Origin: Selenomonadaceae bacterium
Lineage (GTDB): Bacteria > Bacillota > Negativicutes > Selenomonadales > Selenomonadaceae
Direction of reading: 5' to 3'
Length of the DNA: 64,000 nucleotides
Assembly (NCBI GenBank): GCA_024698045.1
Contig: JAILRS010000039.1
Coordinates: forward strand, 62,001 to 126,000
The translations under genes were made by a program, and so were the position numbers. Of this stretch, positions 31,740 through 38,924 are shown in pieces. Below the pieces are notes generated by a model that ran no database searches, was not told the origin of the DNA, and worked only from the letters and a program-made list of their open reading frames with translations. Numbering within the stretch: position 1 is the stretch's first letter; every line of letters starts with the position of its first letter.

Positions 31740-34700
31740 CTATCTAAAATTTTTCCGCCGACAAAGCAGCGAATACAAACAAGGTATCACAATCAAAGTC
31801 AACAGCGTCGAAGTTATCAAGCCGCCTAAAATCGCGTGTGCCATAGGTGCCACGTGCCTCTGCTCCGGGACCAAACGATAACGCAATCGGTAACATCCCC
31901 AAAATCATTGCCAATGTCGTCATCAAAATTGGTCTGAAACGTACACGCCCGGCCGCTACCAATGCCAAATTACAATCGATTCCTTCAGTCATTTTCTTCT
32001 TCGCAAAATCAATTAATAGGATTGCATTTTTTGTCACCAAGCCCATCAGTAAAAGTATCTCGATTCCCGAAATCATACTCAGCTGACTGTTAAACGCCAA
32101 CAAGCCTAATAACGCGCCCACGAATGCCGGAGGTAAAGCCGCCATTATTGTAAACGGTTCGCTCCAACTTTCAAATTGCGCCGCCAAAATCATGAAAATG
32201 AATGAGATTGCCAAAACTAATGCCGTCAATATATCGCGCATCATTGTTTTCATTTCGTCGGCTTCTCCCGCATTGTCTATATACGTTCCCATAGGCAGTT
32301 CGAGATTTTCCGTCGCCTCTTCAAATTTCGTCTCGAATTCGCCCAAAGACAAGCCGTCCAAATTTGCGGAAATTCTTACTTCCCTTTGTTTATCGTAACG
32401 ATTAATTGCCGAAGGTACCGTATCAAATTTCCATTCGGCGACCGAGGACAGCGGAACAAGTTGAGTTATTCCGTTTGCGTCCGTATTTGCAGTCGGCACT
32501 TCGATTAAATTCAAGTTACTCGGTTTTTCGCGATTGCTGTCCGCCAATCTCAATCTAACATCTACTTGTTCGTCGCTATCGCTGAATTTCCCGACCTTCG
32601 TGCCCTCAAACAATGTGCTTATCGTCGTCCCTATTGCCTCGTTTGAGACATTTAAATCATAGGCGCGACTTTCTTTTATAAGAACGGATAAGCGCGGACT
32701 GCTCGGGCGATAATTTGAAGTTATATCCGTTATTCCCGTCATTCCGTTGAGTAATGCAACAATTTTTTCGGAGGCGTCGCCCAAAGTTTGCAAGTTCGTT
32801 CCCTTGACGGAAATCGCAACAGGTTTACTTCCCATATCCGATAATCCTTCGACGCTGATATAAACGCCGGACAGAGAATTTAATTTCTGTCTTATCTCGG
32901 AAATAATTTCGTTTTGACTGCGCGAACGATTTTTTTTACTTTCCAACGTCACGAAAAAAGATTGATCGTCCGCCGCGCTGTTCGTTGCGTAAACATGTTT
33001 TACACCCGAAATATCCGATAAAATTCGCGTCATTTTCTGCGCAAGTTCTTCTTTAGCATCAAGTGTCATACCTTCGTAAACTTCATACTTTACCGTGAAT
33101 TGTCCTTTATCCGTTGCTATCATCATATCGGTTCCGATAAAGGGCAGGAGCATTAAACTTATGCCAAATAAAATTACCGATAACGCCGCTACTTTTTTTC
33201 TGTGACAGGCAAGAATTTTTTCCAATAATCTGCCGTAACTGTCCGCTATTCCGTCAAACCAATTGCCGAACGCCTTTTGTTTAGCAAAAAAAAATCCTTC
33301 TTTGGGTTCGTCAATTTTCAAAAATTTTGAAGCCAACATCGGCGTCAGCGTAAACGAAATGAACAACGAAATTACGACCGCAAAAACTATGGTCAAGCCG
33401 AACTCTTTAAAAAATTCGCCCGTAATGCCCGACATAAATCCCATAGGCAGAAATACCGCGATAATGCTGAACGAAGTTGCCATTACCGCCAACATAATTT
33501 CTTCGGTACCGTCCGCCGCTGCTTGTTTCGCATTTTTACCGCGTCGTCTGTGCCGAATAATATTTTCGACGACTACAATCGCGTCGTCAATGAGCAAACC
33601 TATTGCCAACGATAAGCCGAGCATTGACATTGTGTTGAGTGTGAACCCTGCCAAATTCATCAAGAAAAACGCGCTTATCAAAGAAGTCGGAATAGTCAAC
33701 GCGCTTATAACGGTACTCCTCACGTCGCCCAAAAACAAAAGCACGACCAATATCGCGAATATACTTCCCAACACCAAATTTAATCCGACATCATCGATTG
33801 ATTCCTGAATCCTTTCGGCGTCATCGCGAATCAAATGTATCGAAACTCCTTCGGGCAGATTTTGCCGAATTTTTTCCAATTCAACTTTTACTGCGCTTGC
33901 AACTTTTACGGCATTGGCGCCCGATTGTTTCCCTATTTCGATTCCGATTGCCTGTTTGCCGTCGTATCGCGCGACCGCTGTCCGATCTTTCACGGTATCT
34001 TTTACTTCGCCGACCTGTCGAAAATAAATCGGATAATTATTGCGTTCGGCTATCATCAAGTCTAAAAAACTTTGCGCGTCCGTTACCGAAACTTTTGTAA
34101 CCACGGATAATTTTTGCCTTTTACTTTCCAAATTACCGCCCGAACTTTCTTTGAGCGAATTTGAAATTTTTTCGGAAATATCCGCGGGTGATAACGCAAA
34201 CGCACGAAGACTTTTACTGTCTAACAAAAGTTGAATTTCTCTTTCTTCGTTGCCGTATATGCTTAACTTCCCGACGCCCGAAATTTGTTGCAGAGCAGAT
34301 TTTATTTCGTCTTCAACCAAAATCGAAAGTTCGCGCTGTGTCAAAAAATCCGAAGTCAAAACAATCGCCGCAACCGGTTCGGCATGCATATCGTAACGCG
34401 CTACAACCGGTTCGCTTATTCCCGTCGGCAATTCGTTTCTTACCGCGCTTAATTTATCTCTTACATCCTGTGTTGCTTCCGCCGCGTTTATTTCCAAATT
34501 GAATTCTATTCCGATTTCCGCCGTACCTTCCTTTGATACCGAAGTTATGTGACGGATTCCCTTTGCCTCGCCCAATGCCTCCTCTATTCTCCTCGTGACT
34601 TGGCTGTCTATTTGTTCGGGACTTGCTCTCTCGTAAGAAATTTGCACGGAAACATAGGGAAAAGACATATTAGGGTACTCGGCGATATTCAAGCGGAATA

Positions 34701-34785
34701 AACTTACGAAACCGACGAGTACCATTGCCAAAGTCATAACGGTTGCCAATACGGGGCGATTTATACTAAGTTCGGGCAAACTCAA
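31740..34785 (-). pseudogene. RND efflux pump inner-membrane protein (AcrB/HAE1 family), frameshifted near the 3' end
   Basis: Proton-driven multidrug or hydrophobe exporter, about 1014 residues if intact. Recognisable parts: LSINRPVLATVMTLAMVLVG (TM1), RRIEEALGEAKGI, GLSLAIGLLIDDAIVVVENI (TM4 with the proton-relay aspartate pair region), FIGTDMMIATDKGQF and SGIEILLLMGLVTKNAILLID (TM10). After ...SFGPGAEAR the frame shifts: the ORF ends in a non-RND tail at 31744, while the other frame continues APMAHAILGGLITS, then LIVIPCLYSLLCRRKNFR to a TAG at 31740. One extra C at 31850/31851 on the plus strand explains it. The last helix (TM12) is lost. TTG start at 34785 overlaps the fusion-protein stop. 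Confidence 0.88.
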
Positions 34786-35903
34786 TTACCGCCACCCCCG
34801 TAAACATTAACGGCATCGCCGTCCTTCAGTTTATCAATGTTATCCGTCACAATTTCGTCACCTTCGCTTATGCCGGAAATTATTTCGATATTTTCGTCCA
34901 AAAGTTCCCCGATTTCCACGCGCTGTCTTTTTACCGTATCACTGTTTTTGTCCAGCACATAAACATAGTTTTGTCCCTTGCGCGAAATTACGGCGGAGCG
35001 CGGCACGGTCAACATAATACTTTTTTTATCTTCATCGATTAAAACTTCGGTGAACATCCCCGGCATTAAAATAAAATCCGGATTGTCGACCGAAATTTTT
35101 ACTTCAAACAATCTGCTTTCCGCACCGGCAACGGGATTTATAACCGCAACTTTTCCCGTAAAATTTTTATCGGGAAAGGCATCTGTTTTTATCTGCGCAT
35201 TCGTGCCGATTTGCACTTCGGATATAAATTGTTGCTCAACCTTTACCGTTACGTAAACAGAATCAATTTCTTCGACCGTCATGAGTTGCGAACCTGCGGA
35301 AACGATTTGCCCGACGTTAACTTTTTTATTTGCGATAACTCCGTTGACGGGACTTGTAACCATTGCATCAAACAACTTTTTTTGTGCGATTTGCATTTTT
35401 GTTTCGGCGTCTTCCGTTTCCGCTATACTTGTCTTCAATTGAACGGCAGCAAGCTCCAATGTTTCTTTCGATATCGCGCCCACATCAAACAGTTTTCGTT
35501 TGCGATTGTAATTTGCTTTGACATTTTCGTTGTTGACTGTTGCCTTTTTGAGATCGCTTTTAGCCAGACGCAAATTATTTTCCAATTCATCGGTATCGAC
35601 TTTGAGAAGATTTTCGCCGCGCCTCACTCGTTTTCCGTTTTCTACATAAATCGCCTTAATTTAATCCGAATATTTACTGCTGATTATCGATGACGTAAAT
35701 CCTTCAACCGTACCGGTCAACCAAAGTTGATTAGAATTTTGCGTCTTCACTGCCGTTATTACCGATACCGACAACAACTGTTTATTTTCGGGTACTTTTT
35801 CGGTTTTGCCGCTCCCGTAGAAAATTATTCCCAAAGCAAATACAATCATTGCCACCAGAATTTTTTTCCGAATTGGCAGATGTATTTTCATAACAGCTTT
35901 CAT
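34782..35903 (-). pseudogene. RND periplasmic membrane fusion protein, interrupted by an in-frame stop
   Basis: Adaptor (HlyD/AcrA-like) linking the RND pump to an outer-membrane channel; 373 codons if read through, the normal family length. The first part has a membrane anchor (KKILVAMIVFALGIIFYGSG) and the start of the barrel domain (WLTGTVEGFTSSIISSKYSD). Then codon 81 is TAA (35661-35663). The same frame continues without a gap: IKAIYVENGKRVRRGENLLK, the biotinyl-lipoyl region, a coiled-coil hairpin, then LFDAMVTSPVNGVIANKKVN and GQIVSAGSQLM. A single base change in one codon would restore it. The start is ATG 35903, near GGGAG. Unless the stop is read through, no full protein can form. 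Confidence 0.88.
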
Positions 35904-35927
35904 TTCTCCCGTGCAAAATTTTCCACA

Positions 35928-35963
35928 TGATATCATCATAAAATTTTTAGTAAAGTATGTCTC
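35928..35963 (-). promoter_or_regulatory. Promoter of the RND operon with overlapping palindrome
   Basis: Minus-strand -35 GAGACA (35958-35963), 17-nt spacer, -10 TATGAT (35935-35940). The perfect 10-bp palindrome ATGATATCAT (35928-35937) overlaps the -10 and could be an operator for the operon's TetR protein; this is inference. Confidence 0.55.
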
Positions 35964-35975
35964 ATTTTGTCGCAC

Positions 35976-36008
35976 GAAAAAAATCGGCAATACTTTCAAT
36001 GCCGATTT
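35976..36008 (-). terminator. Terminator after the ABC-2/UspA fusion gene
   Basis: Minus strand: AATCGGCA pairs with TGCCGATT around a 10-nt loop, running into seven T residues, 48 nt past the stop. Confidence 0.9.
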
Positions 36009-36055
36009 CAATTTTGGTTATGAAAAATTTTTCGCCGAATTATTTAGGCAAGTCA

Positions 36056-37726
36056 TCATTCGTCACGTTCACGCCAACTGTTTTGCACACCGCGAAAATT
36101 ATTGTACTCATCCCAATCATTCGGCATACCCTTAACGAGAATCACGGGCTTAGGCGAATTTTCTTGCACGTATTTTGAAACCGAACCCGAAGAATTTTCA
36201 TCGCCGAATCCTCCGAAACCGTGTGCGCCCATGACTACGATATCATAATTGCCTTTCGTTATCTCATTGACAATTTCTTCGGCAGGTTCTCCGACTTCAG
36301 CAATGATTTTGACATCAATTTCATTCGGTACAACTTGCCTGAGTTTGGATAGAAATTCGTAGGCGGTATTTTTCAATTCGGAAGGGATATAACCGCTCAA
36401 ACTTACCTTCTCGAATGCAGAAATATCATCTTCGATTTTAACGCACATCATCAAAGTAATATTCGCGCCCCAAGCTTCGGCAATGTCAATCGCCTGCAGT
36501 AATGCCTTAAACGCTTGCCCCGATCCGTCCGTAGGAACAAGTATATTATCAATCGTCGCTTTATCTTTGGAAATTTCTTCGGGCGTATCCAATTTCTTGA
36601 TGATATCGTCCTGCATTGTCGTTATCAATTCATTCCGCTGCGAATTAAATTTCAAACCAAAAAGTATCGCCACAATCGCAACGTAAATCATAAACGCGCC
36701 AATCTCGGAAGAAATTTGCGGTAAGGTTGCGCCGCGTTGAATTATATCGCGTGTGAAATGAAATTCCCAAGTCAACGGGAAGATGTGAGAAAAAGTCACG
36801 ACCCACGGCGATAAATGCGACAGCGGACTTGTGACGCCGCCCAAAATAAATCCGCCCGGTATAAACAAAATCATTCGGCTTGACGCAATACCCGGATTTG
36901 ATGCCGTCCAACCGATTAACACACTTAACATTCCCAACATCAGCGCGTAGACAATTTGAATCAGCAAGAAATCGACGACACGACCGCTGAAAACCAAATC
37001 GCCCCATATGCGCAGAATTGCCAAGCCGAAGAAAAACGAAACGACCATACACGCCGAATAGGGTACGATTCGCCCGAGAAAATCCCATGGCGTACCGTTC
37101 AGCAAAATTTTGTCGAGTTGTTTGGTTAAACGCAAGCGCGGTACCATGCCGATTGTTGCGAACGTGAAAAACATCGAGCCGAAGAAAAATAAAAATCCTT
37201 GAGTCTGCGTATTTGATGTAGATCCCGAAGGATTAAATAAATTTCTGTCGTTGAGTGTGAGACCGCCCGATGCCATAGGATTTGCGCGCGCGTTATTTAT
37301 CGCTATAAGTTCGTTCATTGCCTCTTTGATATCGGCAGTCTGCGCAGTATTTGAGTTGTCGTAAAAAATTCCGACGGGTGCGGCATCTCCGTTGTAAAAT
37401 TTTTTCTCCAAATCTTTCGGCAGGTAAATCACGGCATCCGCTTGGTCACGCAAAAAAAGTTCGTCGGGTTTCGTCGCGACATTTATGACGGCTTTAACCT
37501 TCATATATTCCGACGCGTCAATCTGCGTGATAAATTCGCGGCTGTATCTTGAATTATCCAAGTCGATAACAATAACGGGCGCATCTTCGGAAAAATTTCC
37601 GGCAAGTAACACGCTCAAAAATACACTGATAATCATCGCGACCATCAAGCAAACTTTTTCGTAAGGCATGCCCTTACCGCTGAATAAAAATTTTGTTTCG
37701 TCCTTGAGTGAATTTAAAAAGCCCAT
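36056..37726 (-). CDS. ABC-2 type permease fused to a C-terminal universal stress protein (UspA) domain
   Basis: Inner-membrane protein of about 556 residues. Residues 1-385 are an ABC-2 exporter permease (YbhR/YhhJ type): TM1 at about 28-46 (VCLMVAMIISVFLSVLLAG), a large external loop (VIVIDLDNSRYSREFITQID), then five helices between about 180 and 380, including GGFILGGVTSPLSHLSPW. Residues about 405-545 are a Usp domain: NILVPTDGSGQAFKALLQAI, then IVVMGAHGFGGFGDENSSGS and PKPVILVKG, close to the ATP-binding type with one extra residue in the loop. No ABC ATPase gene is adjacent. ATG 37726 lies 8 nt after a GGGGG ribosome site. Operon with the HlyD protein, 13 nt apart. Confidence 0.85.
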   Translation of the reverse strand: MGFLNSLKDETKFLFSGKGMPYEKVCLMVAMIISVFLSVLLAGNFSEDAPVIVIDLDNSRYSREFITQIDASEYMKVKAVINVATKPDELFLRDQADAVIYLPKDLEKKFYNGDAAPVGIFYDNSNTAQTADIKEAMNELIAINNARANPMASGGLTLNDRNLFNPSGSTSNTQTQGFLFFFGSMFFTFATIGMVPRLRLTKQLDKILLNGTPWDFLGRIVPYSACMVVSFFFGLAILRIWGDLVFSGRVVDFLLIQIVYALMLGMLSVLIGWTASNPGIASSRMILFIPGGFILGGVTSPLSHLSPWVVTFSHIFPLTWEFHFTRDIIQRGATLPQISSEIGAFMIYVAIVAILFGLKFNSQRNELITTMQDDIIKKLDTPEEISKDKATIDNILVPTDGSGQAFKALLQAIDIAEAWGANITLMMCVKIEDDISAFEKVSLSGYIPSELKNTAYEFLSKLRQVVPNEIDVKIIAEVGEPAEEIVNEITKGNYDIVVMGAHGFGGFGDENSSGSVSKYVQENSPKPVILVKGMPNDWDEYNNFRGVQNSWRERDE

Positions 37727-37739
37727 GCAATCGCCCCCG

Positions 37740-38837
37740 TTACTTCGGCTCAACGGTAATTGTTTGCCCTGCAAGTACTTCTTCGGGGTTATCGATATAA
37801 ATGCGGACTTGGAATGCCGATAAATCCGACTGACCTTTTTCGCGCGTCTGTCTCAAATCAGCGAAGCCGGGAGCTTGTGTCAGCAGTCTGATTGTTCCGC
37901 TAACCTCTTTGTCATCCGCAACCGTCCGCCCGATTATTTTGTCGCCTTCGTGCAAATTTACTGCCTGTTCTTCCGAAAGATAGATGTCGTAATAAACGCG
38001 ATTTGTTTCGAGCAAAATCACGGGAGTATTTGGCGCAATCATTTCGCCTTGTTTCTGCAGTACGGATAAAATTTTTCCGTCTTCGGGGGCGCGCAATGTC
38101 AAACGTCCCTTTGCTACTTCTGCCTCTTTCAATTGCACTTCCAACATTTTTTTCTGTTCGGCGAGTGCGGCGATATCGTTCTTGATATTTTCTGCGGCAG
38201 CGCGTTCCTGTTGGATTGTCGGCAATGTTAACGAATCTGTGTTGCCCGTATCCGCAATGCCCGATAAAAGTCTGTCAAGTAATTGCTGTTGTGTTTCTAC
38301 ATTAGCCTGCGCCACATTGAGTGTCATTGTTGCGTCGTCAAGTTGTGCTTTGGCTATCGCGCCCGACTTGAATAATTCTTCTTTACGTTTGTAATCGATT
38401 TGCGCGTTTACAAGTGTCGCTTTTGCCGCATTGACCGCGCCGCGCTGACTGTCTATCTGCCTGAAAGATTGTTGTTCATCGTTATTCGCCTTGAAGAGTG
38501 TCGTCGTCATATTGCCCGAAGTTGAATTTATCTGCGCATCGAGTTGAGCAATCTGCGCACGAATTTTTTCGATAGTCAAATTTATATCGGTCGCGTCTAT
38601 TTCCATGACAACTTCACCGGCTTTAACCTGTTGCCCTTCGCGGATTGCCTCGTTAATCAATCTGCCGCCAACCGAATCGAACGACAACTTAATTTGTTCC
38701 GCCGTGATGATTCCGTCCTTCTTTTGCGTCGCCAATACTACTGCGTCATTGCCTCGGTACATTAAAATCACGCCGCTTATCACCAGCAGCGCGATAAATA
38801 AAATTCCCGTGCGTATTGCCTTTTGTCTTGCTACCAT
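37740..38837 (-). CDS. HlyD-family membrane fusion protein (YbhG-like)
   Basis: Periplasmic adaptor of about 365 residues with one N-terminal membrane anchor (GILFIALLVISGVILMY). A split lipoyl domain (LINEAIREGQQVKAGEVVME ... LRAPEDGKILSVLQKQGEMI) flanks a long coiled coil (about 70-225, heptad-rich, with VNAAKATLVNAQIDYKRKEE). A beta-barrel domain follows (IYLSEEQAVNLHEGDKIIG). It is the first gene of a two-gene operon with the ABC-2/UspA permease, so it likely connects that permease to the outer membrane. ATG 38837 has GGAGG 8 nt upstream. No TolC-like gene is seen in the window. Confidence 0.9.
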   Translation of the reverse strand: MVARQKAIRTGILFIALLVISGVILMYRGNDAVVLATQKKDGIITAEQIKLSFDSVGGRLINEAIREGQQVKAGEVVMEIDATDINLTIEKIRAQIAQLDAQINSTSGNMTTTLFKANNDEQQSFRQIDSQRGAVNAAKATLVNAQIDYKRKEELFKSGAIAKAQLDDATMTLNVAQANVETQQQLLDRLLSGIADTGNTDSLTLPTIQQERAAAENIKNDIAALAEQKKMLEVQLKEAEVAKGRLTLRAPEDGKILSVLQKQGEMIAPNTPVILLETNRVYYDIYLSEEQAVNLHEGDKIIGRTVADDKEVSGTIRLLTQAPGFADLRQTREKGQSDLSAFQVRIYIDNPEEVLAGQTITVEPK

Positions 38838-38924
38838 TGCCGATTCCTCCGTTACAGAATTTTTCACGGGCATTTTATCAAATTGACAACGGTTGATGTA
38901 ATAGCTGTTTACAAAAAAATTTTT

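Follow-up and report, generated by a model that had tools for sequence, protein, structure and literature searches.

A Usp domain fused to an ABC-2 permease in Quinella: a probable tethered regulator of a HlyD-type exporter encoded without an ABC ATPase

Introduction

What does a universal stress protein (Usp) domain do at the end of an ABC-2 permease whose operon holds no ABC ATPase? The question is raised by a single gene in the 64,000-nucleotide stretch of Selenomonadaceae DNA analysed here (the window); of the named genomes in the collection, that of Quinella sp. 1Q7 is the closest. Our preferred answer, with a probability of roughly 0.6, is that the locus encodes an ATPase-less HlyD/ABC-2 exporter carrying a tethered, dedicated nucleotide-binding Usp regulator. 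A permease whose predicted nucleotide-binding domain was at first encoded by the adjacent gene and later became part of the same chain would offer a handle on how such exporters are controlled.

The fused gene and its operon

The operon and the parts of the fused gene are as follows.

37740..38873, minus strand: HlyD/EmrA-like membrane-fusion adaptor, first gene of the operon (Pfam/NCBIfam; adjoins the permease in nearly all relatives)
36056..37726, minus strand: fused gene, ABC-2 permease with C-terminal Usp domain (ORF, Pfam, 30 fused homologous loci in the genus)
36587..37726, minus strand: permease part, residues 1-380 (Pfam PF12698, AlphaFold model)
36554..36586, minus strand: variable linker between permease and Usp, residues 381-391 (low identity to relatives)
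36131..36553, minus strand: Usp domain, residues 392-532 (PF00582, fold match to TeaD 3hgm)
36521..36541, minus strand: Usp N-terminal motif LVPTDGS, including D400 (conservation across Usp rows)
36182..36229, minus strand: nucleotide-binding loop GAHGFGGFGDENSSGS, canonical length plus one residue (conservation across Usp rows)
35976..36009, minus strand: terminator-like hairpin with a T tail, just 3' of the fused gene (RNA folding; weak evidence)

The open reading frame of the fused gene starts at an ATG at 37726 and encodes 556 amino acids. Two domains are found in it, both above the curated Pfam cut-offs, namely PF12698 (ABC2_membrane_3) at residues 27-356 (E 1.5e-30), matched over nearly the whole domain (model positions 8-345 of 347), and PF00582 (Usp) at residues 392-532 (E 7.4e-23). 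The adaptor gene hlyD ends 13 bp upstream of the start codon of the fused gene and is its only operon partner, and this spacing suggests that the two are co-transcribed. The hairpin that follows the fused gene has a stem of 10 bp and a z-score of -1.3 by RNA folding; a consensus terminator scan passed it over because its loop exceeds the limit of the scan. A scan of the window for the Walker A and signature patterns found no ABC ATPase, and the one nearest to the fusion in the genome (C31:61934-62368) is about 35 kb away, right where the window begins. No tolC gene lies beside the operon. The original prediction, which had described a true ABC-2/Usp fusion with a HlyD adaptor as sole partner and no ABC ATPase nearby, was therefore accurate on all three points.

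The AlphaFold model of the fused protein (mean pLDDT 79, pTM 0.61) begins with a cytoplasmic helix (residues 3-16) and a first membrane helix (22-43), followed by an extracytoplasmic domain at about 49-165 and further membrane helices, the last of which is one long helix (336-378). This helix order is as expected for the membrane domain of a type V ABC exporter. Among PDB structures, the best match to the permease side was ABCH (8z0j), with a low TM-score of 0.34, and a PDB sequence search with the permease gave no significant match. In the model, the permease has the short N-terminal helix at one end and the Usp domain at the other; the usual topology of the permease family would place both in the cytoplasm.

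Mean identity to relatives is 77% in the permease and 65% in the Usp domain, compared with 17% in the linker region (residues 376-391). The dN/dS ratio in close pairs is about 0.01-0.28 for the permease half and the Usp half alike, and purifying selection acts on both halves of the fusion.

Spread of the fusion in Quinella

The fusion is a feature of rumen Quinella bacteria. Among the first 60 genomes of the genus to be searched, about 27, counting that of the window, have it in full length, and the loci gathered from the genus include 30 distinct fused ones in addition to the window. An assembly join between two genes, the alternative that the original prediction had itself raised, is ruled out because the same full-length fusion recurs across the genus in about 30 species-level genomes. 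Likewise, an apparent frameshift in the Usp half of two genomes (G004 and G044) turned out to be a scaffold gap filled with N. On the permease tree, which is a quick tree, the fused group appears as one change; all but one of the 31 fused rows group together with 98% support and the branch uniting all 31 has 38% support, so that the sequences are consistent with a single origin of the fusion, with weak support for the uniting branch.

The outer neighbours of hlyD and the fused gene vary by species, and the pair itself is mostly kept together. There are exceptions among the Quinella relatives, several of which have hlyD convergent to the fused gene or 0.4-7 kb away from it; for example, in four loci of one subclade (L057, L059, L063 and L064), hlyD lies downstream and convergent at a distance of about 520-540 bp. 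Decayed remnants of the hlyD-fusion pair with internal deletions are seen at three further loci of the genus (L039, L040 and L043, in genomes G031, G050 and G047, respectively).

Origin from an unfused operon

In other Selenomonadaceae and in other families of the Negativicutes, the permease and the Usp have a gene each, and the operon runs marR, hlyD, permease, usp. This unfused operon was found at 50 distinct loci (49 classified by script and L141 by eye) from about seven families of the class, with Selenomonas and Mitsuokella among the carriers, and the same four genes are annotated on the Selenomonas ruminantium plasmid pSRC1. Overall, the 99 distinct permease loci comprise 30 fused loci, 50 with usp as the next gene, four with tolC as the next gene, 14 with neither and one at a contig edge. 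The gap between permease and usp in unfused loci is mostly -14 to +20 bp. In the window, as in nearly all relatives, hlyD and the permease form a conserved pair, in which the adaptor is encoded with its inner-membrane pump. MarR lies upstream in 44 of the 49 unfused loci first classified and in none of the fused loci, and a search for a relocated MarR elsewhere in the window's genome, run without a positive control in that genome, gave no match.

The sister of the fused group on the permease tree (L093) has a separate usp gene 43 bp downstream of its permease, and the fusion is therefore the derived form. Its descent from a widespread marR-hlyD-permease-usp operon is a point that the original prediction had missed.

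The Usp domain

Across 79 Usp rows, D400 is identical in 99%, as are G500, G503 and G514, and S515 is conserved in 89%. The nucleotide-binding loop of the window reads GAHG-10X-GS against the canonical G-2X-G-9X-G(S/T), and is thus one residue longer; the extra residue is absent from 97% of the rows, and most fused and unfused relatives have the canonical 9X spacing. D400 and all of the motif glycines are kept, and the almost complete ATP-binding loop of the original prediction needs amending as regards the spacing. From these residues, the domain is predicted to bind nucleotide. The top fold match of the Usp half is TeaD (3hgm).

Several observations tie this Usp to its permease. Permease and Usp distances in unfused pairs are correlated (r 0.90; 0 of 2000 permutations), to which shared species history also contributes. 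Furthermore, 69 of the 79 Usps from operons or fusions share a signature, F-E-Q-V-S-x-x-G-Y-x-P, which is missing from all of the roughly 25 other Usps of the twelve genomes checked; judged by this motif, the Usp subfamily is restricted to the permease operon. A Pfam search of the window's genome, which is 99% complete, returned no second Usp domain, and no operon-type Usp was found elsewhere in the genomes checked that have no operon Usp.

A proposed tethered regulator of export

We propose that the two genes of the window encode a HlyD-type exporter, composed of the adaptor and a homodimer-forming ABC-2 permease, which would work with an outer-membrane channel of the TolC type and with no ABC ATPase encoded alongside. 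The Usp domain, placed on the cytoplasmic C-terminal helix of the permease, would bind nucleotide and serve as a dedicated regulator, switching or tuning export according to the ATP/energy or stress state of the cell. It would represent a covalently tethered version of the separate Usp encoded beside the permease in most Negativicutes loci examined. We infer the homodimer, the binding of ATP by the Usp domain, the direction of regulation and the use of TolC.

The Usp is most likely a built-in regulator because permease and usp are neighbouring genes of one operon in the relatives. The operons that have an intact exporter and no Usp, in genomes with no operon-type Usp elsewhere, fit an accessory regulator. 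The 14 loci of this kind also show that the regulator is dispensable, which counts against the proposal, as do the longer nucleotide loop of the window and the displaced or convergent hlyD of some Quinella relatives. That the Usp domain gates the permease by nucleotide level was one of two roles that the original prediction had offered, and a regulatory role of this sort does appear to fit best.

The missing ABC ATPase

The absence of an ATPase neighbour extends well beyond the window. No ABC ATPase is a regular member of the operon among about 100 distinct relatives, so that the regular ATPase neighbour by which the original prediction would have been refuted is not seen, and an ATPase gene lies within about 1 kb downstream in only three loci, each time a different one: PstB-like (L032), MlaF-like (L035) and DrrA-type (L073). 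The PstB-like, MlaF-like and GlnQ/MetN-like ATPases near some loci belong to other, unrelated systems, as judged from the genes around them or from sequence.

The second role offered by the original prediction was that the Usp domain recruits an ATPase encoded elsewhere. In a broader form, an ABC ATPase encoded elsewhere would power the permease in trans, with the Usp as a secondary regulator or docking adaptor. The permease belongs to the ABC-2 family and has retained an amphipathic helix at its N-terminus as well as short helices on the cytoplasmic side. Helices of this kind dock ATPases in type V exporters, which makes an ATPase in trans possible. There is also a candidate, since the window's genome has one orphan ABC-2-type (DrrA-type) ATPase (C10:22829-23530, L251), the orthologue of which lies 120 bp downstream of the fusion in one genome (G001). 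For the Helicobacter pylori genes HP1486 and HP1487, an ATPase in trans is likewise presumed by the authors (PMC9570263).

However, proximity in G001 had made this orphan look like the obvious partner, and that standing is weakened by its relatives. The orthologue in other Negativicutes has an ABC-2 permease of its own, 246 amino acids long, as the very next gene, and a counterpart of this permease is still present in the window's genome (C20:34982-35725, L222), now beside a different ATPase; the orthology of these two permeases was judged from N-terminal sequences and length. The ATPase and this ancestral permease are thus adjacent in other Negativicutes and separated in Quinella. Moreover, the DrrA-type ATPase is an orphan gene in 60 of 66 genomes of the genus, is carried by members that lack the fusion as well, and stands beside the fusion in only one of the 30 fused loci; nor is any ATPase regular in any of the operons. 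It is not the sole candidate partner either, because its own ancestral permease sits elsewhere in the genome. Elimination gives no unique pairing, since the C10 ATPase has a permease of its own and a Wzm-like ABC-2 permease (C29:46987-47601, L256) is also without an adjacent ATPase gene. The look through the full genome for a co-occurring ATPase therefore yielded a candidate and no unique partner, the idea of recruitment is weakened, and powering in trans, which would be compatible with a regulatory Usp, appears rather unlikely.

A further explanation is that no ATPase is involved at all and export is driven by protons or ions, or facilitated, with the Usp as a sensor only. HlyD/ABC-2 permeases without an adjacent ATPase gene do occur in several phyla. 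Beyond the class, the permease profile was run on plasmid records and a thin sample of the phylum. HlyD with a single ABC-2 permease and no ATPase is found outside the class at L297 and L298, and Prevotella has a TolC-HlyD-permease-permease layout without an ATPase. Similarly, other members of the same genus have TetR-HlyD-permease-permease operons without an ATPase (L211 and L213), and a canonical operon with an ATPase adjoins layouts of this type in the genus (L212). On the other hand, more distant relatives with HlyD, in Salinivibrio and Phenylobacterium, encode an ATPase in the operon, and no ABC-2 permease of the PF12698 family is known to run on an ion gradient. Such export is also compatible with a Usp regulator, and it appears rather unlikely, to about the same degree as powering in trans.

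The fusion could also be a neutral accident, in which the Usp is a co-expressed stress protein that does not act directly on the permease. Loss of one stop codon would suffice to join neighbouring genes across a gap of 0-20 bp, and the linker is unconserved. Against this, the fusion is kept in 30 species-level lineages under purifying selection, the permease and Usp diverge together, the Usp signature is restricted to the operon, and the fused Usp is the only one detected in the window's genome, all of which makes an accident improbable.

Finally, a pair of Usp domains on a homodimeric permease might have replaced the ABC ATPase as a motor, with ATP binding and release driving export. The nucleotide-site residues found in the sequence and the position of the Usp where the final membrane helix ends in the model (two copies in a homodimer) might allow this. 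It is very improbable, however, because sister operons keep the ATPase-less exporter without a Usp (14 loci lack Usp and TolC alike, and in four more a tolC gene stands where usp would be), homologues outside the class are likewise ATPase-less exporters without one, and the genomes of this kind that were checked have no operon-type Usp elsewhere that could stand in.

Relation to known systems

The reading of the fused Usp as a regulator has its nearest precedent in TeaD, a Usp of Halomonas elongata that is reported, in work cited in PMC5549992, to regulate the ectoine transporter TeaABC. As in that system, a Usp is linked to a transporter, and the layout is similar in that usp lies directly downstream of the permease or is fused to it; however, TeaABC is a TRAP importer and TeaD a separate protein, whereas the partner here is a HlyD/ABC-2 exporter and the Usp is fused. 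By analogy, the best reading is that the Usp domain would regulate its exporter as TeaD does TeaABC. Similarly, the ATP-binding Usp Rv2623 of Mycobacterium tuberculosis binds and acts on a putative ABC exporter, Rv1747 (PMC5549992), but it does so in trans through an FHA domain and phosphothreonine, and Rv1747 has a nucleotide-binding domain of its own.

Other known systems resemble the exporter rather than its Usp. The tripartite efflux system HP1486-HP1489 of H. pylori has a HlyD-type adaptor and ABC-2 permeases, and its locus holds no ATPase; comparing sequences gave the authors no clear candidate, and they name the orphan HP0853 as one under test (PMC9570263). This system differs in having two permeases, an outer-membrane protein and no Usp at the locus. 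YbhGFSR-type exporters also combine PF12698 permeases with a HlyD adaptor, but have an ABC ATPase in their operon, unlike the fused gene and its hlyD; L212 is an example with an ATPase from the same genus. Covalent fusions of Usp to transporters are known from amino-acid permeases and Na+/H+ exchangers in archaea and bacteria (PMC12159084), families unrelated to ABC-2/HlyD exporters.

ATPase-less HlyD/ABC-2 systems and Usp-transporter fusions are already known; the two together, as a permease-Usp operon or fusion, appeared in none of the open-licence papers searched, in line with the original prediction, which knew of no description of the pairing, and the Quinella genome paper does not mention the fusion (PMC9585023). 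The unfused operon is present in Selenomonas and Mitsuokella, which can be cultured and in which the Usp could be removed separately from the pump.

Other features of the window

No defence families were detected by PADLOC. Close to the fused gene, an RND adaptor gene (34782-36011, minus strand) has an in-frame stop near 35661, with the remainder of the adaptor continuing in the same frame beyond it, and the reading frame of the RND pump shifts near the C-terminus (31744-31900, minus strand), the expected end being found in another frame. The adaptor stop and the pump frameshift suggest either decay of this RND pair or sequence errors.
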